A DNA stretch of 64,000 bases from Anaerolineaceae bacterium. Lineage in GTDB: Bacteria > Chloroflexota > Anaerolineae > Aggregatilineales > Phototrophicaceae. Positions within the stretch are counted from its first letter, which is position 1; each line of letters begins with the position of its first letter. Shown piece by piece: positions 37,999 through 62,647 of this stretch. The notes beneath the pieces were generated by a model. It worked only from the letters and a program-made list of their open reading frames with translations, made no database searches and had not been told where the DNA came from. The position numbers and the translations under genes were made by a program. The stretch lies in assembly GCA_016124855.1 (NCBI GenBank), contig WGMX01000014.1:124001-188000 (forward strand), given 5' to 3'.

Positions 37999-38487
37999 AT
38001 GGCGTCGCCCCCAAACGATGATAAACGCTGGCGGATTATCAATGCAACCATGCGTCGTCATGGTTATAAACCCGGCGCGTTAATCGAAACTCTGCACGAC
38101 GCCCAAGAAGCTTTTGGCTATTTGGACGAAACGACACTACATTATATCTCCGCAAATCTGCATGTTCCTCTGAGTCGCGCTTATGGTGTTGCCACTTTTT
38201 ATAATTATTTCAGGCTGAAACCTCAAGGATTGCACTCATGTGTGGTCTGTTTAGGTACTGCGTGTTACATCAAAGATTCCCCCACTATTTTAGAACGAAT
38301 TCAAACTGGTTTAGGTATCCAGCCGCAGCAGACAACACCTGATGGACAAATCTCCTTATCTATTGCCCACTGTGTTGGGATGTGCTGGCTAGCCCCGGTG
38401 GTTCTCGGTGATGAACAAGTGATTGAGCAAATGACCGAAACCAACGCACTCGAAAAAATTCAGGAGTGGAAACGTCATGTTACCTGA
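37999..38487 (+). CDS. hoxE: Bidirectional [NiFe] hydrogenase diaphorase subunit HoxE (NuoE-like)
   Basis: The 162-residue thioredoxin-like [2Fe-2S] protein has ligands in CLGTACY and AHCVGMCWLAP. It transfers electrons between the diaphorase and the hydrogenase core or other acceptors. It heads a run with 11-base overlap into hoxF. GGAGGAG lies eight bases before the ATG. Its presence distinguishes HoxEFUYH from the simpler HoxFUYH. Confidence 0.92.
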   Translation: MASPPNDDKRWRIINATMRRHGYKPGALIETLHDAQEAFGYLDETTLHYISANLHVPLSRAYGVATFYNYFRLKPQGLHSCVVCLGTACYIKDSPTILERIQTGLGIQPQQTTPDGQISLSIAHCVGMCWLAPVVLGDEQVIEQMTETNALEKIQEWKRHVT

Positions 38488-40132
38488 CCATTTATTGCCA
38501 GAAGATGAATTGCAGCAAGTCGATGAGCAGGAACGTGCCGAAAAACAGCAGTACCAGCATCATATCTATGTCTGCATGGGAGCCGCCTGCCTAACCGCTG
38601 GCAGTGCCGAAGTGAAGGCAAGTCTCGAATCCCATCTTGCGCCCGATAACCATTGTCGCGTGATCGGTGGGGGTTGTCGCGGTTTGTGTGTTGCAGGACC
38701 TACAGTGACCATCACACCCGACGATGTCCTGTATGGCGAAGTCAAGCCAGAGGATGCGCCGGACATCATCAAAAGTTTGGATGCCAGAAAACCTGTTGAA
38801 CGGTTACAACGTCCCTCCAATACGCCGTTTTTTATGCGGCAGCAGCGGGTGGTGCTGGAATTAGCAGGTAAGCTGAATCCTGAACGCATCGAAGATTACA
38901 TCGCTAACCGCGGATTTACCTCGCTTATGAAGGCCGTCACCGATATGACCCCCGATCAGATCATCGACGAGATCACGCGCAGTGGTCTACGTGGACGGGG
39001 TGGCGCAGGTTATCCCACAGGCTTGAAATGGCGCACGGTCGCCAAAGCCGATGGATCACCCAAATACGTCATCTGCAACGGTGATGAAGGCGATCCCGGC
39101 GCATTTATGGATCGCAGTGTCATGGATGATTATCCTTTCCGCCTGCTCGAAGGCATCGCAATTGCAGCCTATGCAGTAGGCGCCAGTTATGGCTATGTCT
39201 ACATCCGCGCCGAATATCCGCTGTCGGTCAAACGTGTACAGAATGCTATTCGGCAGATGAAGCGCTTTAACATGCTCGGCAATAATATTTGCGGAACTTC
39301 TTTCAGTTTCGATGTTGAGGTTCGGGTTGGCGCGGGTGCGTTCGTTTGTGGCGAAGAAACCGCCTTAATCGCTTCAATTGAAGGCAAGCGCGGGCATCCA
39401 AGACCACGCCCGCCATATCCTGCGACCTCCGGGTTGTGGGGTAAGCCCACACTCATCAATAATGTCGAGACTTATGCCAATATCGCCTCGATTATCCGCA
39501 ATGGTGCCGAATGGTTCGCTGGCATTGGAACAGAAAAGAGCAAAGGCACGAAGGTTTTCGCGCTGACGGGCAATATCAGTCATAGCGGCTTAATCGAAGT
39601 TCCGATGGGCATAACACTACGCGAGATAATCTACCAGATCGGCGGTGGTATCCCGGATGGCAAAACCTTTAAAGCAGTACAGACAGGCGGCCCCTCCGGC
39701 GGTTGCATTCCGGCGCAGTATCTCGATATGCCCGTGGATTATGAATCGTTAGCCAGCATCGGTTCAATCATCGGTTCGGGCGGCATGATCGTAATGGACG
39801 AATCGACCTGTATGGTAGATGTCGCTAAATACTTCATGAAATTCTGTATGACCGAGTCATGCGGCAAATGTATCCCTTGCCGGGTTGGAACCGCACAAAT
39901 GCACCAGATTCTGGACAAAATTACGCGGTACGAAGCCACGTTGGCCGATCTAGAACAGCTCGAAGCCCTTTGCGAGATGGTTAGTCAGACCAGTTTGTGC
40001 GGTCTGGGCCACGCTGCACCTAATCCCGTAAAAAGTACACTCCGCTTCTTCCGCGATGAATACTTGGCGCACATTGTCGATCACACCTGCCCTGCCGGAG
40101 TCTGTAAACACGAAGAGGTGGTGCCGCTATGA
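38477..40132 (+). CDS. hoxF: Bidirectional hydrogenase NAD(P)H/FMN subunit HoxF (NuoF-like)
   Basis: The 551-residue protein has an N-terminal thioredoxin-like [2Fe-2S] domain ([18 protein letters not shown], about 25-110). The NADH/FMN domain carries [13 protein letters not shown] and [14 protein letters not shown] [4Fe-4S] site [12 protein letters not shown] lies near residue 458, with a further conserved Cys later. It oxidises or reduces pyridine nucleotide. The protein ends at [10 protein letters not shown], without the extra ferredoxin domain found in bifurcating HydB-type homologues, which favours simple NAD(P)-linked chemistry. The start overlaps hoxE by 11 bases. Confidence 0.93.
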
Positions 40133-40842
40133 AGGTTGTCACACTCAAAATTAACGATCATGATGTCACCGGACGGGATGACGAATCAATACTACAAGTC
40201 GCCCGCGATAACAACATAGAAATTCCGACCTTATGTTTTCTGGAAGGCTTAAGTGAAATCGGAGCGTGCCGTTTGTGTCTGGTAGAGATCAAAGGCAGTC
40301 CTAAGCTTGTGTCTGCCTGTACCGCACACGTTAACGAGGGGATGGAAGTCTTTACCGAATCTGAACGCCTCACCAAATACCGTCGCATGATTATCGAGAT
40401 GTTGTTTGTCGAAGGTAATCACGTCTGTTCGGTGTGTGTCTCCAATGGACATTGCGAACTGCAAAACCTCGCACAGAAGCTGGAAGTTGACCACGTTCGG
40501 CTGATGTACCAGTACCCTAAACGCGAAGTGGATGCTTCCCATCAGCGCTTCATTCTGGACCATAACCGCTGCGTATTGTGTACACGCTGCGTGCGCGTCT
40601 GTGATGAAGTCGAAGGATCGCATACGTGGGATGTCTACGGACGCGGCAGAGAATCTCGAATTATCAGTGATCTGAATACGCCTTGGGGTGAATCCGACAC
40701 CTGTACCAGTTGCGGTAAGTGTGTGCACGTTTGCCCGACAGGAGCATTAATCGAAAAAGGAAAATCTGTTGCAGAAATGACCAAACGCCGCGAATTTTTG
40801 CCTTATCTAACAGTGATGCGCAAGGAAAATGGAAATGACTAA
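40129..40842 (+). CDS. hoxU: Bidirectional hydrogenase diaphorase subunit HoxU (NuoG-N-like)
   Basis: The 237-residue protein has an N-terminal [2Fe-2S] ferredoxin fold (GACRLCLVE), the His-Cys3 cluster region ([15 protein letters not shown]) and two [4Fe-4S] motifs ([11 protein letters not shown] and [12 protein letters not shown]). It wires HoxF to HoxY. It overlaps hoxF by four bases (ATGA) and hoxY by 14. Confidence 0.93.
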
Positions 40843-41368
40843 GAAAAAACTGGCGACAGTCTGGTTAGATGGATGTTCTGGCTGCCACATGTCATTTCTA
40901 GATATAGACGAACGCCTGTTGGAACTCGCTGACCTCATTGAACTGGTCTATAGCCCCTTGGTTGATAACAAAGTCTTCCCCGATGAGGTCGATATAACGC
41001 TGGTCGAAGGTGCAATCAGTTCCGAAGAAGACTTGGAGAAAATCAAACATATTCGGCAGCATACAAAAGTGCTTATCGCCATGGGGGATTGTGCAGTTAC
41101 AGCAAATGTGCCTTCAATGCGTAATCCGTTCGGTGTGGATGCAGTACTGCATCGGGCATATCTGGAAGAGGAAAATCGGAACCCACAAATTCCAACCAGT
41201 CATTTACCCAGACTGTTGCCACAAGCCCGCCCTGTACATACCGCGGTAAATGTCGATGTGTATCTGACAGGTTGCCCTCCTTCCGCCAAGGTGATTCTGT
41301 TCACCCTTACGGAACTTCTCAATGGACGCACACCATCACTGCAGCAGCTTACCCGGTTTGGCGCGTAG
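40829..41368 (+). CDS. hoxY: Bidirectional [NiFe] hydrogenase small subunit HoxY
   Basis: The 179-residue protein carries the proximal [4Fe-4S] ligands in [14 protein letters not shown] and TGCPPS. It lacks the signal peptide and the medial/distal clusters of uptake hydrogenase small subunits, as expected for a cytoplasmic group 3d enzyme. The ATG at 40835 is an alternative start. It overlaps hoxU and is followed 19 bases later by hoxH. Confidence 0.93.
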
Positions 41369-41387
41369 TATAGAGACGGAGTATTTC

Positions 41388-42800
41388 ATGGCACAACAAA
41401 TTACAATTGATCCCGTCACCCGTATCGAAGGTCATGCGCGTATTACGCTCCAACTGGATGATACAGGAACCGTAACGGATGCTCAATTTCATGTTACCCA
41501 GATTCGTGGGTTCGAAAAATTCTGCGAAGGACGTCCTTTTTACGAAATGCCCTCGCTGATGGCGCGTATCTGCGGAATTTGTCCGGTAAGTCACCTCATT
41601 GCGTCTGCCAAAGCCTGTGATGCGCTGCTTGCAGTTCGCATCCCACCGACAGCGGCAAATTTGCGCCGCATTTTGAATCTGGCACAAATCGCGCAGTCCC
41701 ATGCGCTCAGTTTCTTCTATCTGTCTTCGCCGGATTTACTGCTCGGCATGGATGCCGATCCCAAACAGCGCAACCTGTTTGGTGTAGCACAGGCGAAACC
41801 ACAGCTTGCCAAAGACGGTGTACGTCTGCGCCAGATCGGTCAAAGCATCATCGAATTGTTAGGTGACAAGCGAATACATCCAGCATGGGTAGTTCCCGGA
41901 GGAGTCAGCGAACCCCTAACGCCGGAAAAACGCGACCAAATTCTAGCGATGATGCCGGACGGAATTACAATTATTCATCGGACGCTGGATTGGTTTAAGA
42001 CTGTATTAGAAGGATACAAACCAGAGATCGAGACCTTCGCCAACTTCCCCACGTTGTTTATGGGGCTAGTAGATGAACACGGCGCGCTAGAAACCTACGA
42101 TGGAAATATTCGCATTGTCGACGCTGAAGGTCATCAGGTTCACGATGATTTTCCATCCGAGCAATATCGGGACTATATCGCCGAATCAGTTGAACCCTAC
42201 AGCTACCTCAAGTCACCCTATTATAAACCGTTGGGATACCCGCAGGGCATCTACCGCGTCGGCCCATTGGCACGTTTAAATATCGTAGATCGTATCGGGA
42301 CACCACTCGCAGACGCGGAATTCGCCGGGTTCAAGTGGCTCAACCGCAGCAGTTCCTTCCATTATCATTATGCCCGCTTGATCGAAATTTTGTACTGCTT
42401 CGAGATGATTCAACAATTGTTGAACGAACCAGACATACTCAACAAACACGTTCGCGCTCATGCCGCGCCCAATAACTTTGAAGGATTTGGGGTAAGTGAA
42501 GCGCCGCGTGGCACACTAATGCACCACTATCAGATTGACGAAAATGGCTTAATGACCCGTGCCAGCCTAATTATCGCCACCGGGCACAATAATCTGGCGA
42601 TGAACCGGGGTGTTTTACAAACCGCACAGCACTTTGTAAAAGGGGCAAAGCTCACGGACGGTATGCTAAACCGCGTCGAAGCCGTAATCCGCACATTTGA
42701 TCCCTGTTTAAGCTGTTCGACTCATGCAATAGGCAAAATGCCGATGCAAATCCAATTGATGTCTGCCGGCGGAGAAGTAGTAGACGAACTGAAGCGGTAA
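41388..42800 (+). CDS. hoxH: Bidirectional [NiFe] hydrogenase large subunit HoxH
   Basis: The catalytic subunit of 470 residues has nickel ligands C62/C65 ([10 protein letters not shown]) and C440/C443 (DPCLSCSTH). His446 is the expected cleavage point, leaving a 24-residue C-terminal peptide to be removed by the protease encoded next. A GGAG site precedes the ATG at 41388; the longer open frame would overlap hoxY and is rejected. With hoxEFUY it forms a group 3d-type NAD(P)-linked hydrogenase that can make or consume H2. Confidence 0.95.
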
Positions 42801-42809
42801 AAAAGAGCC

Positions 42810-43262
42810 ATGTCCCACTTTTTAATTATCGGATATGGCAACACCTTACGCGGTGATGACGGTGCGGGTCAGTATGTCGCCCAAGCTTTGATGCAAGAAT
42901 CTCTTGAAGTGGAGATAATCACTTGTCATCAGCTAACCCCCGAACTGGTGTTCCCGATTGCCCAAGCGGATTATGTCATATATATCGATGCTTGTTTGGG
43001 GTTAATTCCCGGCAACATAAACGTAGAACACATTGAACCCGAAGCTGATGCGGGGGCCTTTACCCATGATGTCACACCGATGTCGCTGCTGGCAGCCGCG
43101 CACAACCTCTATGGTCATCAGCCTCAGGCATATCTGATCACCATAATGGGTGTGGATTTCGACTATGGCGAAGTGCTGTCGCCACAAGTGGAATCAGCGG
43201 TAGCTAGTGTCGTCAATCTGATTCAGTCGGCTATAGATAATATCAATGTATTAGACGGCTGA
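42810..43262 (+). CDS. hoxW: Hydrogenase maturation protease (HoxW/HyaD family)
   Basis: The 150-residue protein has the nickel-sensing motif GYGNTLRGDDGAG with the conserved first acidic residue, a second acid in YIDACLG and a histidine in FTHDVTP. It clips the C-terminal peptide of the large subunit after nickel insertion. It lies nine bases after hoxH and so most likely processes HoxH. Confidence 0.9.
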   Translation: MSHFLIIGYGNTLRGDDGAGQYVAQALMQESLEVEIITCHQLTPELVFPIAQADYVIYIDACLGLIPGNINVEHIEPEADAGAFTHDVTPMSLLAAAHNLYGHQPQAYLITIMGVDFDYGEVLSPQVESAVASVVNLIQSAIDNINVLDG

Positions 43263-43375
43263 GGGAGTACCGCGCAAATCAGAAACCACCAGTTGATATG
43301 GGCATCAGGCAGTTATTACAACGTTAAACAATTGGGCATAGGATCGGTTGTCTGGAACTTGGCGAGGCTCACGCG

Positions 43376-45694
43376 GTGAATAAAACGTATGACCTCAAAT
43401 TACGAGAAGTAGATCAGCGGAGAGGAAGCGTGTGTGAACGCATTTGCATCACCATACAAGGTGCTGTTCAGGGAGTAGGCTTTCGCCCCTTTGTCTATCG
43501 CTTGGCGCACGACTTGGGTGTCACGGGATGGGTAAATAATTCGCCCCAAGGTGTAACGATTGAGGCCGAAGCATCTCCCGATGTTTTACGCGCCTTTGTC
43601 ACGGCACTCCGTGAACAAAAACCACCACACGCTCAAATCAATCATCTCAGTGTGCTTAATCTACCCCCGCACGGCAGTCGCGATTTTGAAATCCACCCCA
43701 GTGACCACGCCGGCACAAAATCTGCTGTCATATTGCCCGATTATGCCGTTTGCGCAGATTGTCTCCGTGAGTTATTCGACCCTAACGACCGCCGTTATTT
43801 ATATCCTTTCATCAACTGTACTCATTGTGGGCCGCGTTACAGCATTATCACTGGACTGCCATATGATCGTCCGGCGACCACCATGGCGAGCTTTGAGATG
43901 TGCGAGGACTGTCGCGCCGAATACGAAAACCCTTTGAATCGGCGTTTCCACGCACAGCCGATTGCATGTCCAAAATGCGGACCACAGCTAACCTTGTGGG
44001 ACACCAATCGGCAGGCGTTGGCTGTGCGCCACGCTGCGTTGTTGCTTGCAGCCGGGGCAATCCGTCAAGGGAAAATCGTAGCACTAAAAGGTCTGGGTGG
44101 CTTCCAACTCCTGTGCGATGCCGCAAATCCCCAAGCCGTCATGCGTTTACGCCAGCGCAAAAACCGTGCCCATAAACCGTTTGCGCTAATGTTCCCAAGG
44201 CTTGAACAGATTCAACAAGTCTGTGAGATCTGCCCCCTTGAAACAGGTTGGCTAACCGCATCCGAAGCACCGATTGTTCTGCTGCGTAAAAAATTAATAA
44301 GTCGTGACGATCCTATTGCGCCTGATAACGCCTATCTCGGTGTGATGCTGCCATATACTCCTTTGCACCATTTACTAATGCGTGAACTAGATTTTCCAAT
44401 CGTGGCAACCAGCGGCAACATCTCCGGTGAACCGATTTGTATTGATAATCAACAGGCCCTAACCAAACTACATGACATTGCCGACTTGTGGCTGATCCAT
44501 GACCGCCCGATTACCCGCCCGATTGACGATTCGGTGGTACAGGTCGTTAATGATGACATCACGGTACTGCGACGGGCACGGGGCTTCCCGCTAAACTGTG
44601 GAACCATAAACGAAATCAATGTACTGGCGGTTGGTGGACAACAGAAAAACACCATTGCCTTGTCTAACGGTGTTCTGAGCCAGCACATCGGCGATATGGA
44701 CTCAGTCGAAACAGAAACCGCCTTCAAAAATACCATTCAGGACTTGCAAACCCTCTACGATTTTCAGCCGCACGTGATTGCCTGCGATCTCCATCCAGAT
44801 TATCACACCACACGCTGTGCTGAAGCCATCGGCCTGCCCATCATGAAAGTCCAGCATCACTACGCCCATGTGTTAGCGTGTATGGCAGAAAATCAGTTGA
44901 AACCACCGGTTCTAGGTGTCGCTTGGGACGGCACAGGTTATGGCACCGATGGAACAATATGGGGGGGAGAATTTTTGCTTGTTGAAGAACATGGTTTTCG
45001 CCGCGTCGGACATCTACGCCCATTTTATTTACCCGGAGGTGAACAAGCTGTTCGCGAGCCACGTCGCTCAGCCTTAGGATTGTTGTACGCGCTGTATGGA
45101 GATGCCGCCTTCGAACATGAACACATCCAGACCATGTTCAATGGAAGTGAATTGAGCCTAATGCAAACCATGCTAAAAAAACGCATCAACAGCCCGCTCA
45201 CCACCAGTGCTGGACGATTATTTGACGCAATAGCAGCCCTTCTCGGCATTTGTCCTTTCGCCTCTTTTGAAGGACAAGCCGCCATTGCCCTAGAAGCAGC
45301 GGCAGTGCAGAGCAGCACCGACGAATGCTACCCGTATTTGATTACAGAAATCACTGACGAACAATGGGGCACTGGACATATGCTCGAGACTAAACCGATG
45401 GTGTCGTCGCTCCTGGAAGATCGCTCTGCCATCACTGACATCGCCTTAAAATTTCACAATACGCTGGCAAATATGATCGTTGATATGGCCCGATCTATCG
45501 CAGTGAAGAAGGTAGCACTTACCGGAGGATGCTTCCAGAACAGAACACTCCTCAGCATATTATCGTCTGTCGGATTTCACCCCTACCATCACAGGTTGAT
45601 TCCCCCAAATGATGGTGGACTTTCAGTGGGTCAAATCATCGCAGTAGAGATGGGAGGCAGGAATGTGTCTCGCAGTTCCGGGCAAAATTCTTGA
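43376..45694 (+). CDS. hypF: Carbamoyltransferase HypF
   Basis: The 772-residue protein has an acylphosphatase domain (QGAVQGVGFRPFVYRLA), two Cys4 zinc fingers (CADC...CTHC and CEDC...CPKC), a YrdC-like domain and a Kae1-like O-carbamoyltransferase domain (HHYAHVLACMAE, GTGYGTDGTIWGGE, GGCFQN). It makes the carbamoyl group for the cyanide ligands with HypE. The frame starts at GTG 43376; a GTG at 43430 has the stronger GGAGAGGA site and may be the real start. It overlaps hypC by 32 bases. Confidence 0.94.
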   Translation: MNKTYDLKLREVDQRRGSVCERICITIQGAVQGVGFRPFVYRLAHDLGVTGWVNNSPQGVTIEAEASPDVLRAFVTALREQKPPHAQINHLSVLNLPPHGSRDFEIHPSDHAGTKSAVILPDYAVCADCLRELFDPNDRRYLYPFINCTHCGPRYSIITGLPYDRPATTMASFEMCEDCRAEYENPLNRRFHAQPIACPKCGPQLTLWDTNRQALAVRHAALLLAAGAIRQGKIVALKGLGGFQLLCDAANPQAVMRLRQRKNRAHKPFALMFPRLEQIQQVCEICPLETGWLTASEAPIVLLRKKLISRDDPIAPDNAYLGVMLPYTPLHHLLMRELDFPIVATSGNISGEPICIDNQQALTKLHDIADLWLIHDRPITRPIDDSVVQVVNDDITVLRRARGFPLNCGTINEINVLAVGGQQKNTIALSNGVLSQHIGDMDSVETETAFKNTIQDLQTLYDFQPHVIACDLHPDYHTTRCAEAIGLPIMKVQHHYAHVLACMAENQLKPPVLGVAWDGTGYGTDGTIWGGEFLLVEEHGFRRVGHLRPFYLPGGEQAVREPRRSALGLLYALYGDAAFEHEHIQTMFNGSELSLMQTMLKKRINSPLTTSAGRLFDAIAALLGICPFASFEGQAAIALEAAAVQSSTDECYPYLITEITDEQWGTGHMLETKPMVSSLLEDRSAITDIALKFHNTLANMIVDMARSIAVKKVALTGGCFQNRTLLSILSSVGFHPYHHRLIPPNDGGLSVGQIIAVEMGGRNVSRSSGQNS

Positions 45695-45911
45695 TATTAC
45701 AGTCGAAACGCCTCTTGAACGTTCCGGTAAAGTAAGCTTTGGAGGGATAATCAAAGACGTTAACCTCGCTTACGTCCCCGAAGCAAAGGTCGGCGATTAT
45801 GTCATCGTCCATGTCGGATTCGCGCTCAATCTCGTTGATGAAAAAGAGGCAAAGAGTGTTTTTGACTACCTTGCCCAGATGGGCGAATTGGCGGAACTCC
45901 ATGATGACTAA
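45663..45911 (+). CDS. hypC: Hydrogenase maturation chaperone HypC
   Basis: The 82-residue protein begins MCLAVPGKIL, with the essential Cys2. It carries the Fe(CN)2CO precursor with HypD to the large subunit. Only one HypC/HybG-type gene is present, so it presumably serves both hydrogenases of the window. Confidence 0.95.
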   Translation: MCLAVPGKILDITVETPLERSGKVSFGGIIKDVNLAYVPEAKVGDYVIVHVGFALNLVDEKEAKSVFDYLAQMGELAELHDD

Positions 45912-45949
45912 ACAATATTTCGTCATTTTAAGGTCGATGGTGTGACGCC

Positions 45950-48148: not shown

Positions 48149-48276
48149 TCAAGCACTTTGCTAGCGCCGAATCTCAAGTGATTTCTATTATCCGCCAAAC
48201 ATCACACGACACTGCTGACCTTTGACAGTTTGTTATACGGGAAATTAGTGGTAAGAAAGTATCAGAGGGATGGATT

Positions 48277-48486
48277 ATGAACAGGATTTACAAGACCATC
48301 ACAACCAACACCGCTGTTGCCGTGTTCTCTGAAATCATACCATCTCCCTCACATCGCTCGCGGTTTGGCGCACATATCGTGTTTGGGAAAACCGAATCCC
48401 ATGCAATTTCCGTTTTGGAGTCCTTGGTGACCATCGATCTACAGGTGCATCGTCAGACCATTTCTATGGAAGATGCCAATGCATGA
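48277..48486 (+). CDS. Possible small protein within the hyp operon
   Basis: The 69-codon frame has AGAGGGATGG upstream of its ATG and overlaps the start of hypA by eight bases, which would allow translational coupling. The product has no recognised family: a Thr/Ala-rich N-terminus and no membrane segment. It could be a leader ORF or a random frame. Confidence 0.35.
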   Translation: MNRIYKTITTNTAVAVFSEIIPSPSHRSRFGAHIVFGKTESHAISVLESLVTIDLQVHRQTISMEDANA

Positions 48487-48841
48487 ACTGATGGTCACCC
48501 AAAATGTCCTTGACATCGCACTTAAACAGGTATCTGGTGGGCAGAAAATTACAGCCCTTTATTTAGTAGTCGGGAAGCTGTCCTCAATGATCGATGAATC
48601 AGTACAGTTCTATTGGGACATCATCAGCGAAGGCACAGCCGCACAGGGAGCACAATTACATTTCCGGCGTATTCCGGCTAATATGCAGTGTGTGGACTGC
48701 CACCAAGAATATCAGTTGGGTGGCGATGACTTCACCTGCCCCTACTGCCGCAGCAGCAGTGTTCGCTTGATTTCCGGCGATGAATTTTACTTGCAAGCGA
48801 TTGATGTTGAAGAGAATAGCGAAAAGCAAAACACACCATGA
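48479..48841 (+). CDS. hypA: Hydrogenase nickel incorporation protein HypA
   Basis: The mature start MHELMVTQNVL gives the conserved nickel-binding Met-His-Glu. The zinc site CVDC...CPYC lies near residues 70-90. The ATG at 48479 is preferred over the one six bases earlier because it gives the canonical N-terminus and leaves room for GGAAG. It overlaps hypB by four bases. Confidence 0.93.
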   Translation: MHELMVTQNVLDIALKQVSGGQKITALYLVVGKLSSMIDESVQFYWDIISEGTAAQGAQLHFRRIPANMQCVDCHQEYQLGGDDFTCPYCRSSSVRLISGDEFYLQAIDVEENSEKQNTP

Positions 48842-49485
48842 CCCAAATTCAAGTAGTCGAAAAAATACTCAGTGCCAATGACCGAATCGCTGACGAAAAT
48901 CGCGCAATGTTGGATGCAGCAGGCGTTTTTGCCCTCAATTTGATGGCATCACCGGGAGCTGGCAAAACTTCTTTGATCGAACAAACCGTAAAACACCTCT
49001 CCAACCGTTTGCGCATCGGGGTAATTGATGGCGACATCGCAACAAGCCTAGACGCAGAACGTGCTGCTGCAGCCGGTGCTGTTTCGATGCAGATCAATAC
49101 CGGTGGCGATTGTCATCTGGACGCGGTCATGCTGCACAGTGCTCTTGCGAGTTTTTCCCTCAACGATATTGACCTCCTGATTGTCGAAAACGTGGGCAAT
49201 CTAATTTGCCCTGCCAATTTCCGACTTGGAACGCACAAAAGTGTTCTTATTGCCTCAATTCCTGAAGGAGATGACAAACCCTATAAATATCCGGGTATTT
49301 ATCGCGGCGTCGATACGCTGGTAATCAACAAAATTGATTTGCTCCCTTACGTTCCTTTCGATATGGAGAATTTCCAGCGCGGTGTCGAAATCCTCAATCC
49401 CGGACTGTTGACATTCCCGCTTTCATGTCGAACTGCGGAAGGCTTAGAGCCATGGCTGACATGGATTACCGAGTCCTGTAGTTAG
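48838..49485 (+). CDS. hypB: Hydrogenase nickel incorporation GTPase HypB
   Basis: The 215-residue SIMIBI GTPase has P-loop SPGAGKTSL, the metal/switch region GDIATSLDAERA, DCHLDA and guanine-recognition NKIDLL. It lacks the N-terminal CxxCGC and His-rich nickel-storage extension of some HypB proteins. It drives nickel delivery with HypA. Confidence 0.94.
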   Translation: MTQIQVVEKILSANDRIADENRAMLDAAGVFALNLMASPGAGKTSLIEQTVKHLSNRLRIGVIDGDIATSLDAERAAAAGAVSMQINTGGDCHLDAVMLHSALASFSLNDIDLLIVENVGNLICPANFRLGTHKSVLIASIPEGDDKPYKYPGIYRGVDTLVINKIDLLPYVPFDMENFQRGVEILNPGLLTFPLSCRTAEGLEPWLTWITESCS

Positions 49486-49566
49486 TCAAAAATCATATCG
49501 AATCGCGCAGTTCGTTACTACATCATTTCGTCCCAATGACTTAGCATGAAGGTAGAGGAGGTACTT

Positions 49567-50115
49567 ATGCTCTACGTTCTGCTGATTATTGTCATGCTCA
49601 GTTGCGCAATATATGCTGTGCGTGCAAAGCGCTTGTTGTCATCAGCCTTGTGGTTGGCGGGCGTAAGTATTTCAACGGCGATTCTCCTTTACCTGATTGG
49701 TGCCGTGTGGATCGCGGTCATTGAACTCAGCCTCAGTGTGGGCTTAATTACGATTCTACTGGTGTTTGCCATCAGCATGGCTGGTGCCGATTCTCCCAAT
49801 CAACCCGTTTCAAGGCTATTGAACGTGCCCTTGGTACTGCTGATGTTGGCATTGGTCATTGGCTTGACAATGCCAATCTTGGTTACGCAGACAAACATCC
49901 CTGAATCCTCTTTCGCGACCATCTTCTGGAATGTACGACAGTCCGATGTACTAGCCCAGATTGCACTAATTTTCACCGGTGTCTTAGGCGTGCTCGGATT
50001 GCTGGTCGAGGTTCGATCCAAAGATACGCCACCAACAAAAGTAATCTCAGAATCGGTTTCCCCGAAAGACGAAACTTCAGCCAAGGAGTTTGAGCAAGAA
50101 TGGGAGCGAGTCTGA
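49567..50115 (+). CDS. Group 4 hydrogenase membrane subunit, NuoJ-like
   Basis: The 182-residue protein has about five membrane helices. Its central ELSLSVGLITILLVFAIS resembles the NuoJ/chain 6 helix with its buried glutamate. A perfect AGAGGAGG lies five bases before the ATG at 49567, so the ATG 21 bases earlier is rejected. It is the first gene of a tight operon encoding a membrane-bound [NiFe] hydrogenase. The charged C-terminal tail is cytoplasmic. Confidence 0.75.
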   Translation: MLYVLLIIVMLSCAIYAVRAKRLLSSALWLAGVSISTAILLYLIGAVWIAVIELSLSVGLITILLVFAISMAGADSPNQPVSRLLNVPLVLLMLALVIGLTMPILVTQTNIPESSFATIFWNVRQSDVLAQIALIFTGVLGVLGLLVEVRSKDTPPTKVISESVSPKDETSAKEFEQEWERV

Positions 50116-50417
50116 TGGCAATGCAGCTTTTACTGGCAAGCGCGATAATTTTGCTGGGGATCGGCCTGTATGGACTTCTTGTGATCCGCAATATGATCAA
50201 GGTCGTAATTGCGCTTCAGATCATGGTAAAAGGGGCGCTCATTGCGTTTGTGGTTGCGGGTGGACTGAACGGTCAGCTCAATCTGGGGCAAAGTATCGCC
50301 GTGGCCATTATCACAGCAGATACGATGGTCGCTATTATCGGGTTAGCGCTGGCGGTGAAAATCCAGCAGCGCTTTGGAACTTTGAATGTAGATGAGGTAA
50401 TGCACTTGGAGGGATAA
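50115..50417 (+). CDS. Group 4 hydrogenase membrane subunit, NuoK/MnhC-like
   Basis: The 100-residue protein has three membrane helices, with NuoK/MrpC-like IRNMIKVVIALQIMVKGALIA and AIITADTMVAIIGLALAV. The start overlaps the preceding stop (TGATG). With the NuoJ- and NuoN-like proteins it would form the ion-translocating membrane arm. Confidence 0.8.
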   Translation: MAMQLLLASAIILLGIGLYGLLVIRNMIKVVIALQIMVKGALIAFVVAGGLNGQLNLGQSIAVAIITADTMVAIIGLALAVKIQQRFGTLNVDEVMHLEG

Positions 50418-50419
50418 AG

Positions 50420-51796
50420 ATGCCCCCATTTGTGGTAATTCCCCTGTTTTTCTCGCCTCTGATTTACTTATCAGGCCGAATAACTGCGGCACGCGATATC
50501 GCTCTGGCGGCAGTAGCTGGGCTTTGGCTGTATTTCATTTTTGCGATCAGCACTTTCGACGGCCTCAGTCGGTTTATCATTGCGACACTACTGTTTTTCG
50601 CGACCTTAGTTACGCTCTATTCAAGATCGGATATGCGCGGCACGCAGGGCGAAGAAAAATATTATGCCATGCTCATCCTGATGACCGGAGCAGTTATCGG
50701 ATTAGTATCCGCCCACGATCTTTTCAATCTCTGGATTTGGTTCGAAGTGACAGCCGTATCCTCATACTTATTGGTCGCTTTTTATCACGAACGCAAAAAT
50801 GCCTTAGCCGCTTGCGCTAAATACCTCATTCAAACAGCATCGGGTTCAATTATTGTACTGTTTGCCATCGCCCTTATCTTTGCGCAATCCGGGTCACTGG
50901 AATTTACATCCATGCACCTGCCAATTACACCGTTGATGATCGTTGCCGGAGTGCTGTTTATTCTAGGCTTCGGAGTTAAGCTTGCCCTTGTTCCAACCCA
51001 TAGTTGGCTGCCAGACGCTTATGCCCAAGCGCCAACAGGAATCAGTGCAATGCTCTCCAGCATCATCACCATTTCAGCCCTCGTCGCGCTGCTGCGGGTG
51101 CTCAGCATCTTGAACGGCTTAACGATTGAATGGGGTGCAGTGTTGATTGGTTTTGGCACAGTCAATATTCTCGTTGGGAACTTACTCGCACTCCGGCAAG
51201 ACGAAGTCAAGCGAATTTTCGCTTATTCCAGCCTCAGTCACATCGGGTTTATTCTGCTCGCGGTCGGGATCGGGTTGTATACGCGCCAGTATACGGGTTT
51301 TTATAGCGGGATGCTCCACCTCTTTAACCATGCCGCCATGAAAGCCCTTGCATTTTTCGCAGTCGGCACGGTGATCTTTAATCTACGCAAATCAACCCTG
51401 TACGTAAACGACCTCAAAGGGTTGGCCGCGCGCGACCCACTGACGGCATTCGCCTTAGTGATCGCCTGCTTAAGTCTGGCCGGCATTCCACCGCTGGCAG
51501 GCTTCATGTCCAAATTACAGATATTCGCAGCAGGCCTAGAATCCCGCAATCCAACTATAATGTTGTTGATCATCTTTGCGGCACTCAATAGTGTTTTTTC
51601 GCTTGCCTATTTTCTCCCAATAATCAACGTTCTATTCCAGCCAAATAATGTCTCAATCGGGCATCCTCCCCGGACAATGCGCTTGCCGCTCCTAATTCTG
51701 ATTGCAGAGATATTGATGTTAGGGATTCTTCCGGGGTTGTTGAATGGTCTAATCATGCCTGCCAGCGAAAACCTGCTGCATTTATTCGGAGGTTGA
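50420..51796 (+). CDS. Group 4 hydrogenase proton/ion-translocating subunit, NuoN/NuoM/MrpD-like
   Basis: The 458-residue protein has about 14 membrane helices. It has the antiporter-type residues: a glutamate in LFNLWIWFEVTAVSSYLL, a lysine in GFGVKLALVPTHSWLPDAY, and DEVKRIFAYSSLSHIG. It is the only subunit of this type in the cluster, unlike complex I, which has three. It therefore gives the hydrogenase one full antiporter-like channel. Confidence 0.88.
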   Translation: MPPFVVIPLFFSPLIYLSGRITAARDIALAAVAGLWLYFIFAISTFDGLSRFIIATLLFFATLVTLYSRSDMRGTQGEEKYYAMLILMTGAVIGLVSAHDLFNLWIWFEVTAVSSYLLVAFYHERKNALAACAKYLIQTASGSIIVLFAIALIFAQSGSLEFTSMHLPITPLMIVAGVLFILGFGVKLALVPTHSWLPDAYAQAPTGISAMLSSIITISALVALLRVLSILNGLTIEWGAVLIGFGTVNILVGNLLALRQDEVKRIFAYSSLSHIGFILLAVGIGLYTRQYTGFYSGMLHLFNHAAMKALAFFAVGTVIFNLRKSTLYVNDLKGLAARDPLTAFALVIACLSLAGIPPLAGFMSKLQIFAAGLESRNPTIMLLIIFAALNSVFSLAYFLPIINVLFQPNNVSIGHPPRTMRLPLLILIAEILMLGILPGLLNGLIMPASENLLHLFGG

Positions 51797-51800
51797 CCTT

Positions 51801-52103
51801 ATGCTGACACCGCCGTTTGCTTTTCTGATTTATCTCTTGCTAGTCACGTTGTTATGGGGTCTGGGACGACTGTTGGCCGGGCGTTCAAACCCATCTGTTG
51901 AGAAATCAAGCCCCTATGCCAGCGGTGAAAAAGGGCTAATGACTTCAGCTGTACCCGGCTACAGCCCCTTCTTTCGAGTAGCCCTATTTTTCGCCATTCT
52001 ACATCTGGGTGCGGTTGTGCTTGGCACAGGAGGATCATCACCAATGGCAGGTGTTTACCTGCTGGGCTTGATTTTTGCCTTAGTTGCCTTAGTTCTACAG
52101 TGA
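51801..52103 (+). CDS. Group 4 hydrogenase membrane subunit, NuoA-like
   Basis: The 100-residue protein has three helices and the NuoA pattern (SPYASGEKG, YSPFFRVALFFAILHLGAV). The usual cysteine of the loop (Y-x-C/S-G-E) is serine here. NuoA-like subunits are unusual in Ech-type hydrogenases, so this is a point in favour of a complex-I-like subgroup. Confidence 0.75.
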   Translation: MLTPPFAFLIYLLLVTLLWGLGRLLAGRSNPSVEKSSPYASGEKGLMTSAVPGYSPFFRVALFFAILHLGAVVLGTGGSSPMAGVYLLGLIFALVALVLQ

Positions 52104-52115
52104 AACGGATTTAAT

Positions 52116-52562
52116 ATGATAAACCTTCTGGATCAAATTAAAACATGGGCACGGGTGAACTCGCCTTGGGCAATTCACTTCAACAGCGGTTCCTGTAATG
52201 GCTGCGACATCGAAATTCTGGCGACGCTGACACCTCGTTATGATGTGGAACGGTTGGGTGTCAAGCTGCAAGGCAGTCCCCGTCATGCCGATGTCTTGAT
52301 CTGCACCGGACCTGTCACTCGACAAGCACGCGAACGCTTATTACTCACATACGAGCAGATGCCGGAACCTAAATTTGTGATCGCCGTTGGCTCGTGTGCA
52401 ATTTCCGGTGGCGTTTTTCAGAATTGCTATAACGTGGTGGGACACATTGACGAGGTGCTGCCGGTGGATGTGTATGTTCCCGGATGTCCACCTAGACCCG
52501 AAGCCATCATAGATGGGTTGATAAAGTTGTTAGAAAAGCTAAAACAGGCAGACATCGCATGA
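52116..52562 (+). CDS. Group 4 [NiFe] hydrogenase small subunit, NuoB-like
   Basis: The 148-residue protein has the proximal [4Fe-4S] ligands in GSCNGCDIE, GSCAISGG and PGCPPRPE. It lacks other clusters. It pairs with the NuoD-like large subunit and corresponds to EchC/MbhJ. It is followed by a 4-base overlap into the NuoC-like gene. Confidence 0.9.
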   Translation: MINLLDQIKTWARVNSPWAIHFNSGSCNGCDIEILATLTPRYDVERLGVKLQGSPRHADVLICTGPVTRQARERLLLTYEQMPEPKFVIAVGSCAISGGVFQNCYNVVGHIDEVLPVDVYVPGCPPRPEAIIDGLIKLLEKLKQADIA

Positions 52563-52987
52563 ATACCGAAACCGCATTGAAAACCGCACGCCAACGGCTC
52601 GACCACTGGACGATTGAAACCACCAATCCTGAACCAAATCGCTTGGAAGTCGTGGTAAAAGACTCGGACTTGGTTCTAGCGGCGCGTGTACTAAGTGATT
52701 GGGGATATTTGTCGGCTATTACTGGGCTTGATTTAGGCAAGGAATTAGGGGTGATAGAGGTTCTGTATCACTTTTGCGAAGGGGCAGCAGTCGTCACGCT
52801 TCGGGTTCGCCTGTCGCGTCAATCCGCGTCCGTTCCAACCTTGCTCGGGATTTTGCCTTCAGCCAGCTTTTACGAGCGTGAGCTGCACGAGATGTTTGGC
52901 GTAACAGTTAATGGATTACCCGACCCAAGCTATCTATTTTTACCTGATGATTGGACGAAGGATGTATATCCTTTGCGCAAGGATTAA
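52559..52987 (+). CDS. Group 4 hydrogenase subunit, NuoC-like
   Basis: The 142-residue protein ends with the NuoC/30-kDa signature: YERELHEMFGV followed by FLPDDWTKDVYPLRKD. It is a structural part of the hydrogenase module (EchD/MbhK-like). It overlaps the small-subunit gene by four bases. Confidence 0.88.
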   Translation: MNTETALKTARQRLDHWTIETTNPEPNRLEVVVKDSDLVLAARVLSDWGYLSAITGLDLGKELGVIEVLYHFCEGAAVVTLRVRLSRQSASVPTLLGILPSASFYERELHEMFGVTVNGLPDPSYLFLPDDWTKDVYPLRKD

Positions 52988-52992
52988 CGGAC

Positions 52993-54156
52993 ATGGAAAA
53001 ATTTGTTATTCCGATTGGACCACAACACCCGGCTTTGAAGGAACCGGGACACTTCGAATTCACCGTTGATGGCGAAATTGTAACCAGCGCAACAGTCCGC
53101 CTCGGGTATGTGCATCGTGGCATTGAAAAAGCGACTGAGTCACGAAGCTGGGTGCAAAATCTGTATCTGCTTGAGCGCGTCTGCGGAATATGCTCTCATA
53201 TTCATTCCCTTGCATATTGTCTGGGCGTTGAGCGATTAGCCGATGTTACCGTGCCGCCTCGCGCACAGGCGATTCGGACATTAGTAGCGGAACTAGAACG
53301 GATACACAGCCATTTGCTCTGGCTGGGTGTGGCAGCACACGAAGCGGGCTTCGACACGCTCTTTATGTACAGTTGGCGTGACCGTGAAACAGTCATGGAT
53401 ATTCTCGAAGAGCTGACTGGAAATCGCGTGAATTATTCCGCCAATATTTTAGGCGGAGTCAAAATTGATATCAGCAGCGCGCAGCACGATACCATCCTTC
53501 GCGGATTGGATTTTTTAGAAGAGCGCACCCGACATTATCTTGAAATCATACGCACCGATGCCATTTTATTACAACGGATACGCGGCATTGGAGTCACAAC
53601 CGCAGAACAAGCCGGCATATTAGGGTTGGTCGGCCCTACCGCAAGGGCTTCCGGTGTAGCACGCGATATTCGGGTAGATGCCCCCTATTCGGCGTATACC
53701 GATTTTCCGATCCAGATGGTGATGGATACTTCAGGCGATCTCGAAGCACGTTTTGTGGTTCGCCTCAATGAATTATTTGAGTGTTATCGGATCATCCGGC
53801 ACATTTTAGATCACCTGCCACAGAGCGCATTAACCACCCGAATTCCGCGCCGTATCAAACAAGGTGAAACCATCAGCCGGGTAGAAGCGCCGCGCGGTGA
53901 ATTGTTTTACTTCATTAAAAGCAGCGGCGGCACAGTTCCAGAACGTATCAAAATCCGTACACCAACCATGTGTAATATTGCCTCGGTGCTCACTCTGGCA
54001 ATCGGCCATCAATTAGCAGACATACCCATGATCCTGATCGGCGTTGACCCCTGTTTTTCATGCAATGACCGCAGCGTCGTCATCAATCAACAGGGATGCA
54101 TGACGTGGGAACAACTTAGACAGTACGGAATCGAATTCTACAGGAGGCATTCATGA
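52993..54156 (+). CDS. Group 4 [NiFe] hydrogenase large subunit, NuoD-like
   Basis: The 387-residue protein keeps both nickel-binding CxxC motifs: C64/C67 (RVCGICSHIH) and C354/C357 (DPCFSCNDR). NuoD of complex I has lost these, so this is a true hydrogenase. The N-terminus GPQHPALKEPGHFEF is typical of the group. The C-terminal tail of about 27 residues after NDR is a candidate for proteolytic removal. The ATG at 52993 has AAGGA upstream; the longer frame overlaps the NuoC-like gene and is rejected. Confidence 0.93.
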   Translation: MEKFVIPIGPQHPALKEPGHFEFTVDGEIVTSATVRLGYVHRGIEKATESRSWVQNLYLLERVCGICSHIHSLAYCLGVERLADVTVPPRAQAIRTLVAELERIHSHLLWLGVAAHEAGFDTLFMYSWRDRETVMDILEELTGNRVNYSANILGGVKIDISSAQHDTILRGLDFLEERTRHYLEIIRTDAILLQRIRGIGVTTAEQAGILGLVGPTARASGVARDIRVDAPYSAYTDFPIQMVMDTSGDLEARFVVRLNELFECYRIIRHILDHLPQSALTTRIPRRIKQGETISRVEAPRGELFYFIKSSGGTVPERIKIRTPTMCNIASVLTLAIGHQLADIPMILIGVDPCFSCNDRSVVINQQGCMTWEQLRQYGIEFYRRHS

Positions 54157-55067
54157 GTGAACTTTTTTCGCTGGCAGTTTTTCCCGGCGGATTGTTCGTG
54201 TTGCTTGCTGGGATGGCTTACGAATGGGCGGACCATAAACTCGTCGCTCGGTTGCAAAATCGCGTAGGTCCGCGCTGGTTTCAACCGCTGGCCGATACCA
54301 TCAAACTGTTGGCAAAAGAAGAAGTCATTCCCGCGCACGTCAATACATTTTTGTTTCTAGCACTCCCGATTACAGCATTAGCCGGAGCCTTAACTGCCGC
54401 CCTTTACATACCGCTGCTTGGCATGAACCCGATTTACAATTTTCCCGGTGACCTCATCGTTACGCTGTATCTACTCAGCCTGCTCACGCTTTGCACAGGA
54501 CTTGCTGGGGCAAACACGAGTGATCGCTTTTCGTTGATCGGAGCGACGCGCACATTAACCCAGTTATTCTCCTACGAAGCGCCGTTTCTTATGGCGTTAT
54601 TGGGCGCAGGCTTAGCGGCTGGCACTTGGCAAATTGACACCATCAACACCTATGCACAAAGCCATTGGCTCATCATCACCCAACCCATCGGATTTATCGT
54701 TGCCCTGATCGGGTTAATGGGAAAATTAGAACTATCCCCATTTGATGCCCCTGAAGCTGAAACCGAAATCGTCGCCGGAGCATTGACCGAGTATAGTGGG
54801 CGTGGATTAGCGCTGTTTCGCTTGGGCAGAAACGTGGAATTATTTCTTGGGCTAACCTTAGTTGCCACGTTTTATTTCGGTGGGATTTCCACACCTCTTG
54901 GATTTTTTGTCAAGACTTTTGTTCTGCTGTTGGGGCTGTCGGCGCTTCAATCACTGATGGCACGGCTGCGGATTGATCAAACCGTCGGTTTATGGTGGCG
55001 TTACGGAGCGCTGCTGGTACTAGCACAGTGGCTGCTGCTCATGCTCACTGGAGGGATACCGCGATGA
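54153..55067 (+). CDS. Group 4 hydrogenase membrane subunit, NuoH-like
   Basis: The 304-residue protein has about eight helices and NuoH/EchB motifs: LQNRVGPRWFQPLADTIKLLAKE near residue 30 and LSPFDAPEAETEIVAGALTEYSG near residue 190. It joins the hydrogenase module to the membrane arm. Four-base overlap with the large-subunit gene. Confidence 0.92.
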   Translation: MSELFSLAVFPGGLFVLLAGMAYEWADHKLVARLQNRVGPRWFQPLADTIKLLAKEEVIPAHVNTFLFLALPITALAGALTAALYIPLLGMNPIYNFPGDLIVTLYLLSLLTLCTGLAGANTSDRFSLIGATRTLTQLFSYEAPFLMALLGAGLAAGTWQIDTINTYAQSHWLIITQPIGFIVALIGLMGKLELSPFDAPEAETEIVAGALTEYSGRGLALFRLGRNVELFLGLTLVATFYFGGISTPLGFFVKTFVLLLGLSALQSLMARLRIDQTVGLWWRYGALLVLAQWLLLMLTGGIPR

Positions 55068-55480
55068 AATTGGGCGCGATGTTTAGCGATGTGTTTCGGG
55101 CATTGTTCCGGCGTACTGCGACCCGAAAATATCCATTTGAGCGCACACCACCACCGGAACACTTACGCGGCAAACTTTATTGGGACGCCGAAAAATGTAC
55201 CGGCTGTTGTTTGTGCAGCAAAGATTGTCCGGCGAATGCGATTGAAGTGCTAACCGTCAATAAAGCAAATAAGCGCTTTATTGTACGCTACCACGCGGAT
55301 CGCTGTACCTATTGTGCCCAGTGTGTGTTGTCTTGTCCTCAACATGCCTTGCACCTATCCTCAAATGATTGGGAGCTGGCCAACACGGACAAGCAGGCAT
55401 TTACTTTTTACTATGGGGATGATGCCGATGTCGAATCCTTCTTGGTCAAACGTGCTGAAAACAGCGCTGAAGAAGTCTAA
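55064..55480 (+). CDS. Group 4 hydrogenase ferredoxin-like subunit, NuoI-like
   Basis: The 138-residue protein has two [4Fe-4S] motifs (CTGCCLCSKDCP and CTYCAQCVLSCP) and corresponds to EchF/MbhN. It would accept electrons from soluble ferredoxin. Its ATG overlaps the NuoH-like stop by four bases, behind GGAGGGA. The upstream open frame is rejected. Confidence 0.9.
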   Translation: MKLGAMFSDVFRALFRRTATRKYPFERTPPPEHLRGKLYWDAEKCTGCCLCSKDCPANAIEVLTVNKANKRFIVRYHADRCTYCAQCVLSCPQHALHLSSNDWELANTDKQAFTFYYGDDADVESFLVKRAENSAEEV

Positions 55481-55925
55481 TCAGCGAATTACCATTTTGG
55501 GCATCGGGCATGAACTGCGCAGTGATGATGCTGCGGGCGTAAAGATGGCGCGCGTGCTTAAACGAAGTCTGGCAAACAAACCTCAAATTCTAGTCATCGA
55601 AGGTGGTTCAGCCCCCGAAAATCACACAGCCGTTATACGACGCTTTGCCCCTGACATAGTACTGTTGGTTGATGCCGCCGAAATGGGCCAACCTCCCGGC
55701 TTCATTAAGTGCTTATCATGGGAACAAATCACTGGCCTAAGTGCCTCAACTCATACCCTGCCCCTCCATATCTTGGCACACTATTTGCATGCCGAACTCT
55801 CCTGTCAGGTTTTGCTCATTGGCATACAGCCTGAAACCTTAACCATTGGCGAGAGCCTTTCACTGGACGTAGAGAAAGCAGTTTTTCAATTAACTTCATT
55901 CCTGACGAAGTTCTTCCAGAATTAG
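55428..55925 (+). CDS. Hydrogenase maturation protease (HycI family)
   Basis: The 165-residue protein has GIGHELRSDDAAGV, LVDAAEMG and a histidine in STHTLPLH, the metal-sensing set of HycI-like endopeptidases. It overlaps the ferredoxin-like gene by about 53 bases. Starts at 55419, 55422 and 55428 are equally possible. Position argues that it processes the group 4 large subunit. Confidence 0.85.
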   Translation: MSNPSWSNVLKTALKKSNQRITILGIGHELRSDDAAGVKMARVLKRSLANKPQILVIEGGSAPENHTAVIRRFAPDIVLLVDAAEMGQPPGFIKCLSWEQITGLSASTHTLPLHILAHYLHAELSCQVLLIGIQPETLTIGESLSLDVEKAVFQLTSFLTKFFQN

Positions 55926-62104: not shown

Positions 62105-62106
62105 AT

Positions 62107-62643: not shown

Positions 62644-62647
62644 ACAC

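Follow-up and report, generated by a model that had tools for sequence, protein, structure and literature searches.

Two [NiFe]-hydrogenases and one Hyp set in a variable block behind tRNA-Gln of an Anaerolineaceae genome, with an apparently recombinant, single-pump membrane enzyme

The window analysed here is a 64,000-nt stretch from an Anaerolineaceae bacterium (GCA_016124855.1, contig WGMX01000014.1). Positions 37,999-55,925 of the window hold a block of ~18 kb in which all genes lie on the + strand: hoxEFUYH with a protease gene, hypFCDE, hypAB, the nine genes of a group 4 [NiFe]-hydrogenase, and a gene for a HycI-type protease. Our analysis suggests that this block is a laterally variable island built from two usually separate units, and that the membrane enzyme at its right-hand end has a recombinant history. 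An earlier note on this DNA had described two different [NiFe]-hydrogenases and a Hyp set in a single 18-kb block. The gene content, the family matches (Pfam, NCBIfam) and the CxxC motifs bear this out, and every gene named there was found in its place. We name the group 4 genes 4J-4K-4M-4A-4B-4C-4D-4H-4I after the corresponding Nuo letters; start estimates for hoxH, 4D and 4I come from the sequence together with the starts and lengths of homologues. The features are as follows.

37602..37672, + strand: tRNA-Gln (CTG), called by ARAGORN; left boundary of the block, with the same gltX-tRNA-Gln order in three relatives
37999..38487, + strand: hoxE, [2Fe-2S] thioredoxin-like subunit (PF01257, 4.4e-41), with C-x4-C and C-x3-C visible
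38477..40132, + strand: hoxF, FMN/NADH subunit with an N-terminal [2Fe-2S] domain, aligned to residue 537 of 597 of 7t2r_B, its best solved relative
40129..40842, + strand: hoxU, Fe-S subunit of the short HydA/NuoG type (family match; structure-chain comparison)
40829..41368, + strand: hoxY, hydrogenase small subunit (PF01058)
41388..42800, + strand: hoxH, hydrogenase large subunit (PF00374; 537 bits to 7t2r_D, 425 bits to 5xf9_D); the open reading frame (ORF) opens at 41,322 and the likely start is ~41,388
42810..43262, + strand: hoxW-type maturation protease (PF01750, 3.8e-4, 20.7 bits, below the cut-off of 23)
43376..45694, + strand: hypF (Pfam match)
45663..45911, + strand: hypC (Pfam match)
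45950..47035, + strand: hypD (Pfam match), the sole copy found in the genome
47081..48148, + strand: hypE (AIRS domains)
48473..48841, + strand: hypA (PF01155)
48838..49485, + strand: hypB (PF02492)
49546..50115, + strand: 4J, NuoJ/MbhD-like membrane subunit (PF00499, 8.7e-10)
50100..50417, + strand: 4K, NuoK-like membrane subunit (PF00420)
50420..51796, + strand: 4M, single antiporter-like subunit of the NuoM/N/MbhH type (PF00361, 2.1e-63; 6cfw_H best)
51801..52103, + strand: 4A, NuoA-type subunit with three predicted helices (PF00507, 2.9e-4, 21.4 bits, below the cut-off of 23.3)
52116..52562, + strand: 4B, NuoB/hydrogenase small subunit (PF01058; NCBIfam NuoB models above cut-off)
52559..52987, + strand: 4C, NuoC-like subunit (PF00329)
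52993..54156, + strand: 4D, group 4 [NiFe] large subunit (272 bits to 6cfw_L); the ORF opens at 52,951 and the likely start is 52,993
54153..55067, + strand: 4H, NuoH-like membrane anchor (PF00146, 5.2e-71)
55064..55480, + strand: 4I, NuoI-like ferredoxin subunit for two [4Fe-4S] clusters (two CxxCxxCxxxCP motifs); the ORF opens at 54,992 and the likely start is 55,064
55413..55925, + strand: HycI-type maturation protease (TIGR00142, 1.3e-33, 115.9 bits, cut-off 119.1; TIGR00072 above cut-off); the ORF opens at 55,281 and the start is uncertain

A PF00374 search of the window's own genome (E 0.001) returned two large-subunit genes, both in the block. Each enzyme has its own protease gene, as had been claimed: one of the hoxW type, below cut-off, and one of the HycI type. 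The hoxW-type gene and the NuoA-type gene give the weakest family matches in the block, both under the Pfam cut-off; a similar protease gene also lies behind hoxH in Hox loci of relatives. The claim of a Hyp set shared between the enzymes likewise holds, with hypFCDE and hypAB lying between them and the only HypD found in the genome among them. The run of genes is broken by 113 bp between hoxW and hypF and by 324 bp between hypE and hypA, and is therefore not one tight operon; hypAB and the group 4 genes are spaced by at most 60 bp.

The nine structural genes of the membrane enzyme, in the order J-K-M-A-B-C-D-H-I, comprise the gene set of a group 4 energy-converting [NiFe]-hydrogenase: a large subunit with the L1 and L2 cysteines, and NuoB-, NuoH- and antiporter-like subunits. 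The large subunit, 4D, keeps both CxxC pairs (RVCGICSHIH and DPCFSCNDR) and, among solved structures, scores higher against MbhL (6cfw, 272 bits) than against HycE (250 bits) or Nqo4 (220 bits). MbhL Glu21, named in a passage of PMC7684303 as key for proton reduction, has a Glu as its counterpart in 4D, and the quinone-binding His38 of Nqo4 has a Lys. We rejected the possibility that 4D is a NuoD-like protein that is not a hydrogenase, given both CxxC pairs and MbhL as nearest relative. From its family, the enzyme would be expected to evolve H2 from ferredoxin with ion transport. Its antiporter-like subunit, 4M, is nearest to MbhH among solved structures, and the conserved Glu and Lys positions are filled. 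In 4K, Gln takes the place of NuoK Glu36 and a Lys follows four positions later, in 28/28 family rows aligned (rows of at most 110 residues); given this replacement, the predicted charge path beside the pump differs from that of complex I. There is no further Mrp-type gene among the ORFs between hypB and hycI.

The 4A gene (51,801-52,103) was absent from the earlier gene list. A 16-row profile of 4A compared with PDB sequences gave 18 matches to E 1, all of them NuoA, ND3 or chloroplast subunit 3 (best 0.0014), with no MBH chain among them. Compared with a profile of three true NuoA proteins, the 4A profile gave 85% probability and E 6e-6 over 61 columns. A model of 4A from 63 sequences (mean pLDDT 78.9) predicts helices at 4-25, 54-76 and 81-99, the first loop being long. 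Foldseek with this model gave no match below 0.001; of its 18 matches up to E 10, 13 are to complex I chains ~100-115 residues long. The FDVE stretch of NuoA is LHLG in 4A. A NuoA-type bridge would agree with the modelled shape and with the place of the gene between those for the antiporter and NuoB subunits. The MBH counterpart is MbhI, with two helices and a lateral helix, and helices 2-3 of Nqo7 have been linked to a different arm placement in complex I (passages of PMC7684303). We rejected 4A as MbhI, since no MBH chain is among the 18 PDB matches and three helices are predicted, with the reservation that PMC10396290 equates MbhI with ND3.

How general are these features? The best 80 of 591 group 4 matches are, by name, mostly from metagenome-assembled genomes (MAGs) of Anaerolineae/Chloroflexi, and from cultured Longilinea, Leptolinea, Ornatilinea and Thermanaerothrix. 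We also used 80 named loci, which partly repeat the genomes of our other samples and are often cut by contig ends; loci and genomes are cited below by our L and G numbers. 4A belongs to this group 4 family because, among loci whose upstream part is complete, it is found in nearly all: 60/61 named, 30/30 order and 6/6 class loci. In the 61st named locus (L233) it runs into the 4B ORF via ambiguous bases. In a phylum sample of 301 genomes, 4D was matched in 28 (E 1e-70) and 4A in 13 (E 0.01); nine of the 4A matches, including that of the window, reach 2e-8 or better, and all nine are in genomes with 4D.

The pump genes of the window are of a rare kind. Among loci with a complete upstream part, two antiporter-like genes are present in 60/61 named, 28/30 order and 6/6 class loci. 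The exceptions are L220/L101, which represent one genome (G025), and L124 (G024). The window and L127 (G403) likewise have one pump; L127 is outside the locus count, its contig being short. In a tree of J+K+M (38 sequences, 746 sites), the window groups with L124 and L127 (support 100). In a tree of B+C+D+H (40 sequences, 985 sites), it groups with L102, L103 and L126, all with two pumps (support 100), and a B+D+H tree of 42 sequences agrees, placing the same four together (support 99). Forcing the window into the other group was rejected by the AU test in both trees (3.9e-34 and 0.004). Pairwise identities follow the same division. 4K is 75-76% identical to L124/L127 vs 54% to L103, and 4B is 88% identical to L103 vs 76-78% to L124/L127. 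Identity of 4A is non-discriminating (60% to L103, 56% to L124, 60% to L127). GC3 is 0.55-0.58 in J-K-M and 0.46-0.53 in A to I.

Because the pump and catalytic genes give conflicting, well-supported trees, the membrane enzyme is, judged by its sequence, recombinant: J-K-M group with one-pump loci and B-C-D-H with two-pump loci. The apparent switch in ancestry lies near the 4M-4A border, where the two genes are 4 bp apart. We propose, as a tentative reading that we hold at a little under even confidence, that the enzyme is a natural swap, with a hydrogenase head of the two-pump type on a one-pump arm built like that of complex I, with a NuoA bridge, rather than like that of MBH; two-pump relatives with nearly the same head exist.

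The place of the block points to a laterally variable region. Among the 14 other genomes of the genus that were matched, the nearest gltX genes are those of G003, G009 and G015, to which the window's gltX is 84, 81 and 80% identical. G009 and G015 have matches, in the same order, to nine window genes ending with gltX; in G003 (a 4.2-kb contig) this holds for rodA and gltX, and in all three tRNA-Gln comes next after gltX. Past the tRNA, no window protein was matched at 1e-20 in L286 (10 kb), L288 (6.5 kb) or L287 (1.5 kb), and neither the group 4 large subunit nor HoxH was matched in the three genomes at the cut-offs used. Since these close relatives are collinear to the tRNA and then differ, showing neither enzyme in their draft genomes, the block behaves as an island. 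It would either have been inserted in this lineage specifically, or be older and have been lost from G003, G009 and G015. The genes behind tRNA-Gln differ between the window and the two relatives with long enough contigs, as expected for an insertion hot spot. The end of the tRNA, searched for as an attachment-site repeat, has no other 14-base match in the window, and no integrase gene is among the ORFs tested beside the block. No right-hand junction was located: a search with the SDR gene at 56,375 gave no match at 1e-60 in the same three genomes. Recent foreign DNA, as judged by base composition, was rejected: GC is 0.46-0.53 in the block and 0.46-0.50 in the measured flanking genes.

The earlier note had taken the co-location of the two enzymes as a sign of a designed H2 cycle. 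In an order sample of 154 genomes, 48 have a match to the group 4 large subunit (E 1e-75) and 59 have HoxH at ≥56% identity; a looser tally of 86 includes more distant proteins. Both enzymes occur in 32 of these genomes, and in two of the 32, the window's genome and G025, they are at most 20 kb apart. Where one or both of the genes are flanked on each side by >20 kb of contig (contigs of known length), they are linked in 2/14 genomes. The G025 case is a partial one and differs from the window: Hox genes at that locus are limited to those for HoxU, HoxY and HoxH, behind which lie genes for a pyruvate:ferredoxin oxidoreductase and a dihydroorotate dehydrogenase-like protein. This second, divergent HoxU-Y-H set without HoxE/HoxF lies directly behind the group 4 genes of G025 (L101:959-10735). 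Among the 80 named loci, a HoxH like this is found only at L220, on the same contig as that of G025. The exact layout of the window was observed once. We therefore rejected a conserved Hox + group 4 operon, and selection for the exact pairing is unproven, as the two are linked in so few of the genomes having both. Relatives carry the two enzymes at unrelated places, an outcome that the earlier note itself had named as refuting, and the view that Hox and group 4 form one designed unit is not supported.

A broader form of the pairing does recur. In the order sample, 47 other genomes have a match to the group 4 enzyme, and from these we read 35 group 4 loci. HoxY-/HoxH-like genes (28-33% identity) lie beside the group 4 genes in nine of the 35 (L102, L103, L105, L106, L107, L114, L115, L125 and L132); L106 is truncated by the contig end, with only the small subunit visible. 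For the L103 set, the group 3b ShyA/HydA, HydB and HydG models are best or nearly best, below their cut-offs; the label group 3b-like rests on these models for L103 and on similarity for the other eight loci. All 7/7 other genomes of the genus that have the group 4 enzyme carry such a group 3b-like hydrogenase beside it, and all seven are within the nine loci. Thus the earlier claim is supported in a weaker form, in which group 4 is paired with a group 3 hydrogenase, and the recurring pairs favour a working link of group 4 with NAD(P)-type enzymes, not with Hox in particular. Such recurrence is what would be expected if H2 carried electrons between ferredoxin and NAD(P)H. Another group 3-like hydrogenase, 37% identical to HoxH, is seen beside group 4 genes at L185:146-5892 and L235:1056-4093.

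What might the two enzymes of the window do together? On balance, we favour the reading that the block is a laterally variable hydrogenase island from two usually separate units, in which the recombinant group 4 enzyme and Hox serve as an H2-linked, ion-pumping ferredoxin:NAD exchange. A soluble five-subunit Hox with hypFCDE and a membrane group 4 hydrogenase would have been joined behind tRNA-Gln. Electrons from reduced ferredoxin would enter at the two-cluster 4I, move on to the NuoB-like 4B and reach the [NiFe] site of 4D, where H2 would be formed. The energy would be relayed via the NuoH-like and NuoA-like subunits to one antiporter-like pump and the ion it moves, in a membrane arm presumably oriented as in complex I. 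Hox would shuttle electrons between H2 and NAD(H), and possibly ferredoxin too. The sum would be a ferredoxin:NAD oxidoreductase role with H2 as the go-between, exchanged from one enzyme to the other, and its direction may reverse with conditions.

The strongest competitor, which we consider rather unlikely, is that the block is a maturation island only: both enzymes need the single Hyp set and travelled together, and there is no metabolic coupling. HypD is single-copy in 21/21 genomes searched. The hyp genes adjoin either enzyme in different relatives, being near Hox in L158, L160, L166, L167 and L171 and near group 4 in L205, L222 and L253. A block behind a tRNA where relatives differ also suits such an island. 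However, sharing of Hyp needs no linkage, and in 30/32 genomes with both enzymes they were not found linked within 20 kb. Moreover, in L102 and L103 a group 3 partner lies beside group 4 without a hyp gene in the stretch read.

The alternatives that remain concern the nature of Hox. HoxH keeps both CxxC pairs, the second in the motif DPCLSCSTH, and the presence of HoxE, F, U and Y with this HoxH suggests group 3d, a label drawn from the subunit set. We read 25 Hox loci of relatives, picked by their HoxH. hoxU-Y-H are together in all 25; hypF or hypC comes next on the same strand in 13 (L158-L164, L166-L168, L170-L172), and in L177 hypFCDE adjoin hox on the opposite strand. Hence, hox and hyp genes are a common unit in this order. 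An ORF of ~1,180-1,200 codons follows hypC or hypF in eight of the 25 (L159-L162, L168, L170-L172), with hypD behind it in seven. The sole such ORF tested, that of L171, is pyruvate:ferredoxin oxidoreductase, followed by a dihydroorotate dehydrogenase-like gene, and ties Hox there to a ferredoxin source. The window has no pyruvate:ferredoxin oxidoreductase behind its hyp genes; two such oxidoreductases are elsewhere in the genome.

The genes of ~1,190 codons in eight Hox loci of relatives would suit a Hox that is an electron-bifurcating relative of NiFe-HydABCSL, coupling H2 to NAD and ferredoxin together, and so would two properties of the subunits. The [2Fe-2S] sites corresponding to C1 (HydC) and B5 (the HydB N-terminus) are present, as C-x4-C and C-x3-C in HoxE and HoxF. 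In the comparison with solved structures, the top scores of HoxH, HoxF and HoxU are all against chains of 7t2r, which is listed merely as 'NiFe hydrogenase' and which we take to be the bifurcating enzyme of A. mobile. The structures listed include no cyanobacterial Hox chain, so the top 7t2r score is a limited comparison. HoxF stops before the C-terminal domain that holds clusters B3 and B4 of bifurcating HydB, and HoxU spans only the first 208 of the 692 residues of HydA, the C-terminal part of HydA being absent. The mark of bifurcating members, according to extracts of PMC8880783 and PMC9304861, is clusters B2-B5 together. Since HoxF and HoxU lack the C-terminal parts required by these published criteria, among them the two-cluster domain of HydB, we rejected an electron-bifurcating Hox, which we regard as improbable. 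Nonetheless, the split implied by the earlier note, with Hox linked only to NAD and group 4 only to ferredoxin, is unsafe: the [2Fe-2S] cysteines of HoxE and HoxF are kept and, according to a passage of PMC11647496, Synechocystis HoxEFU reacts with ferredoxin, so use of ferredoxin by the window's Hox is possible by analogy.

Least probable, and very unlikely in our view, is that HoxEFU doubles as the NADH module of group 4 to give an NADH-linked (or NADH- and ferredoxin-linked) membrane hydrogenase, for which there are precedents in HoxEFU-like genes inside other group 4 clusters (L144, L146, L150), in the Dehalococcoides cluster predicted in a passage of PMC9304861 to form one Mbh-Bfu enzyme, and in G446 (L116:3839-7810), where HoxEFU without HoxYH lies directly behind the group 4 hycI gene and is possibly an NADH module for the membrane enzyme; in the window HoxEFU directly precedes its own hoxYH and hoxW, in keeping with the HoxU-Y-H order of all Hox loci read, and 4I already gives a ferredoxin entry site.

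Several observations weigh against the favoured reading of an H2-linked exchange between Hox and a swapped, complex I-like group 4 enzyme. Linkage of Hox and group 4 in only two of 32 genomes is one. In the J+K+M tree, the four one-pump loci group with L125 and L132, which have two pumps (support 100). The GC3 difference fits separate origins but equally an assembly join, with estimated contamination of 9%. Homology of 4A to NuoA is weak (21.4 bits vs the Pfam cut-off of 23.3; best Foldseek E 0.35; pTM of the model 0.40), and two NuoA genes of true complex I type are present elsewhere. Since MbhI is treated as the MBH counterpart of ND3 in PMC10396290, the contrast between NuoA-type and MbhI-type may be only one of degree. 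As for the island, a single marginal PF00374 match (E 7e-4 to 9e-4) was obtained in each of G003, G009 and G015, and G003 and G009 are drafts, 88 and 87% complete.

Among known systems, the closest is Hfo, a predicted 11-subunit Nuo-like group 4g hydrogenase of Bathyarchaeia, said to close the gap to complex I (Loh and co-workers, excerpts of PMC7886697); according to the same excerpts, all MAGs with Hox (group 3d) also had Hfo. Most of the novelty of both the Nuo-like enzyme and its pairing with Hox is thereby gone. Hfo and the window's enzyme are alike in having Nuo-type subunits without NuoEFG and intact [NiFe] motifs, and in being known from MAGs. The window has a NuoA-type subunit, weak by single sequence, and the A-B-C-D-H-I-J-K set; a NuoA equivalent in Hfo would follow from the phrase 'same 11 subunits' in that source. 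Hfo differs in being archaeal, with 11 subunits (three of them antiporter-like) in the Nuo/Fpo order, whereas the window's enzyme is bacterial, has nine subunits with one antiporter-like subunit in the permuted order J-K-M-A-B-C-D-H-I, and adjoins Hox. The MBH of Pyrococcus furiosus (6cfw, group 4d) is the nearest solved relative of the large and antiporter subunits and shares the Glu21 position. It has MbhI, with its lateral helix (PMC7684303), and an Mrp-type Na+ module; the window has instead, on moderate evidence, the three-helix 4A, and lacks such a module between hypB and hycI. Cyanobacterial-type HoxEFUYH (group 3d) has the same five subunits and [2Fe-2S] sites in HoxE and HoxF (PMC11647496, in part); the window's Hox has hypFCDE behind it and, at this locus alone of those read, a group 4 unit further on. 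The Dehalococcoides Mbh-Bfu likewise has genes for a group 4 hydrogenase and for a HoxEFU-like diaphorase at a single Chloroflexota locus, but the latter lie within the group 4 cluster and one complex is predicted (PMC9304861). No paper on the window's arrangement is among the matches listed in the open-licence literature. As far as those matches go, what is new is the physical linkage, the bacterial nine-subunit form with one pump, and the apparent recombinant origin.

The surroundings of the block add little. The contig is 285 kb long, in a draft genome of 7.09 Mb and 84 contigs with estimated completeness of 97.7% and contamination of 9.1%. A 449-bp spacer, which holds tRNA-Gln, lies to the left of the block, and the spacer to the right is also 449 bp. 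Among the neighbours tested, those on the left are cell-shape and division genes, gltX and tRNA-Gln, and those on the right are an SDR gene, an enolase-superfamily gene and ABC transporter genes. A promoter and terminator scan was uninformative (21 and 20 sites vs 24.3 and 19.0 in shuffles). A group of - strand genes at 61406-63718 includes those for a methyltransferase and a radical SAM/SPASM protein.

What do these genes mean for the biology of the family? The message of the co-location itself is modest: combinations of group 3 and group 4 hydrogenases change, and a single Hyp set serves them. The membrane enzyme may be of wider use. There is no agreement on the number of ions that such enzymes move, or on a fixed contribution from every antiporter-like subunit; in one published model, the net yield per two electrons is 0 H+ with one pump and 2 with two. 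If the swap reading is true, nature supplies matched one- and two-pump versions for measuring ions per electron pair, and one- and two-pump arms of complex I type on a similar core (4B 88% and 4D 76% identical to those of the two-pump L103) would be a cleaner natural comparison. A hybrid membrane enzyme with a single pump could help to test how electron transfer is coupled to pumping.

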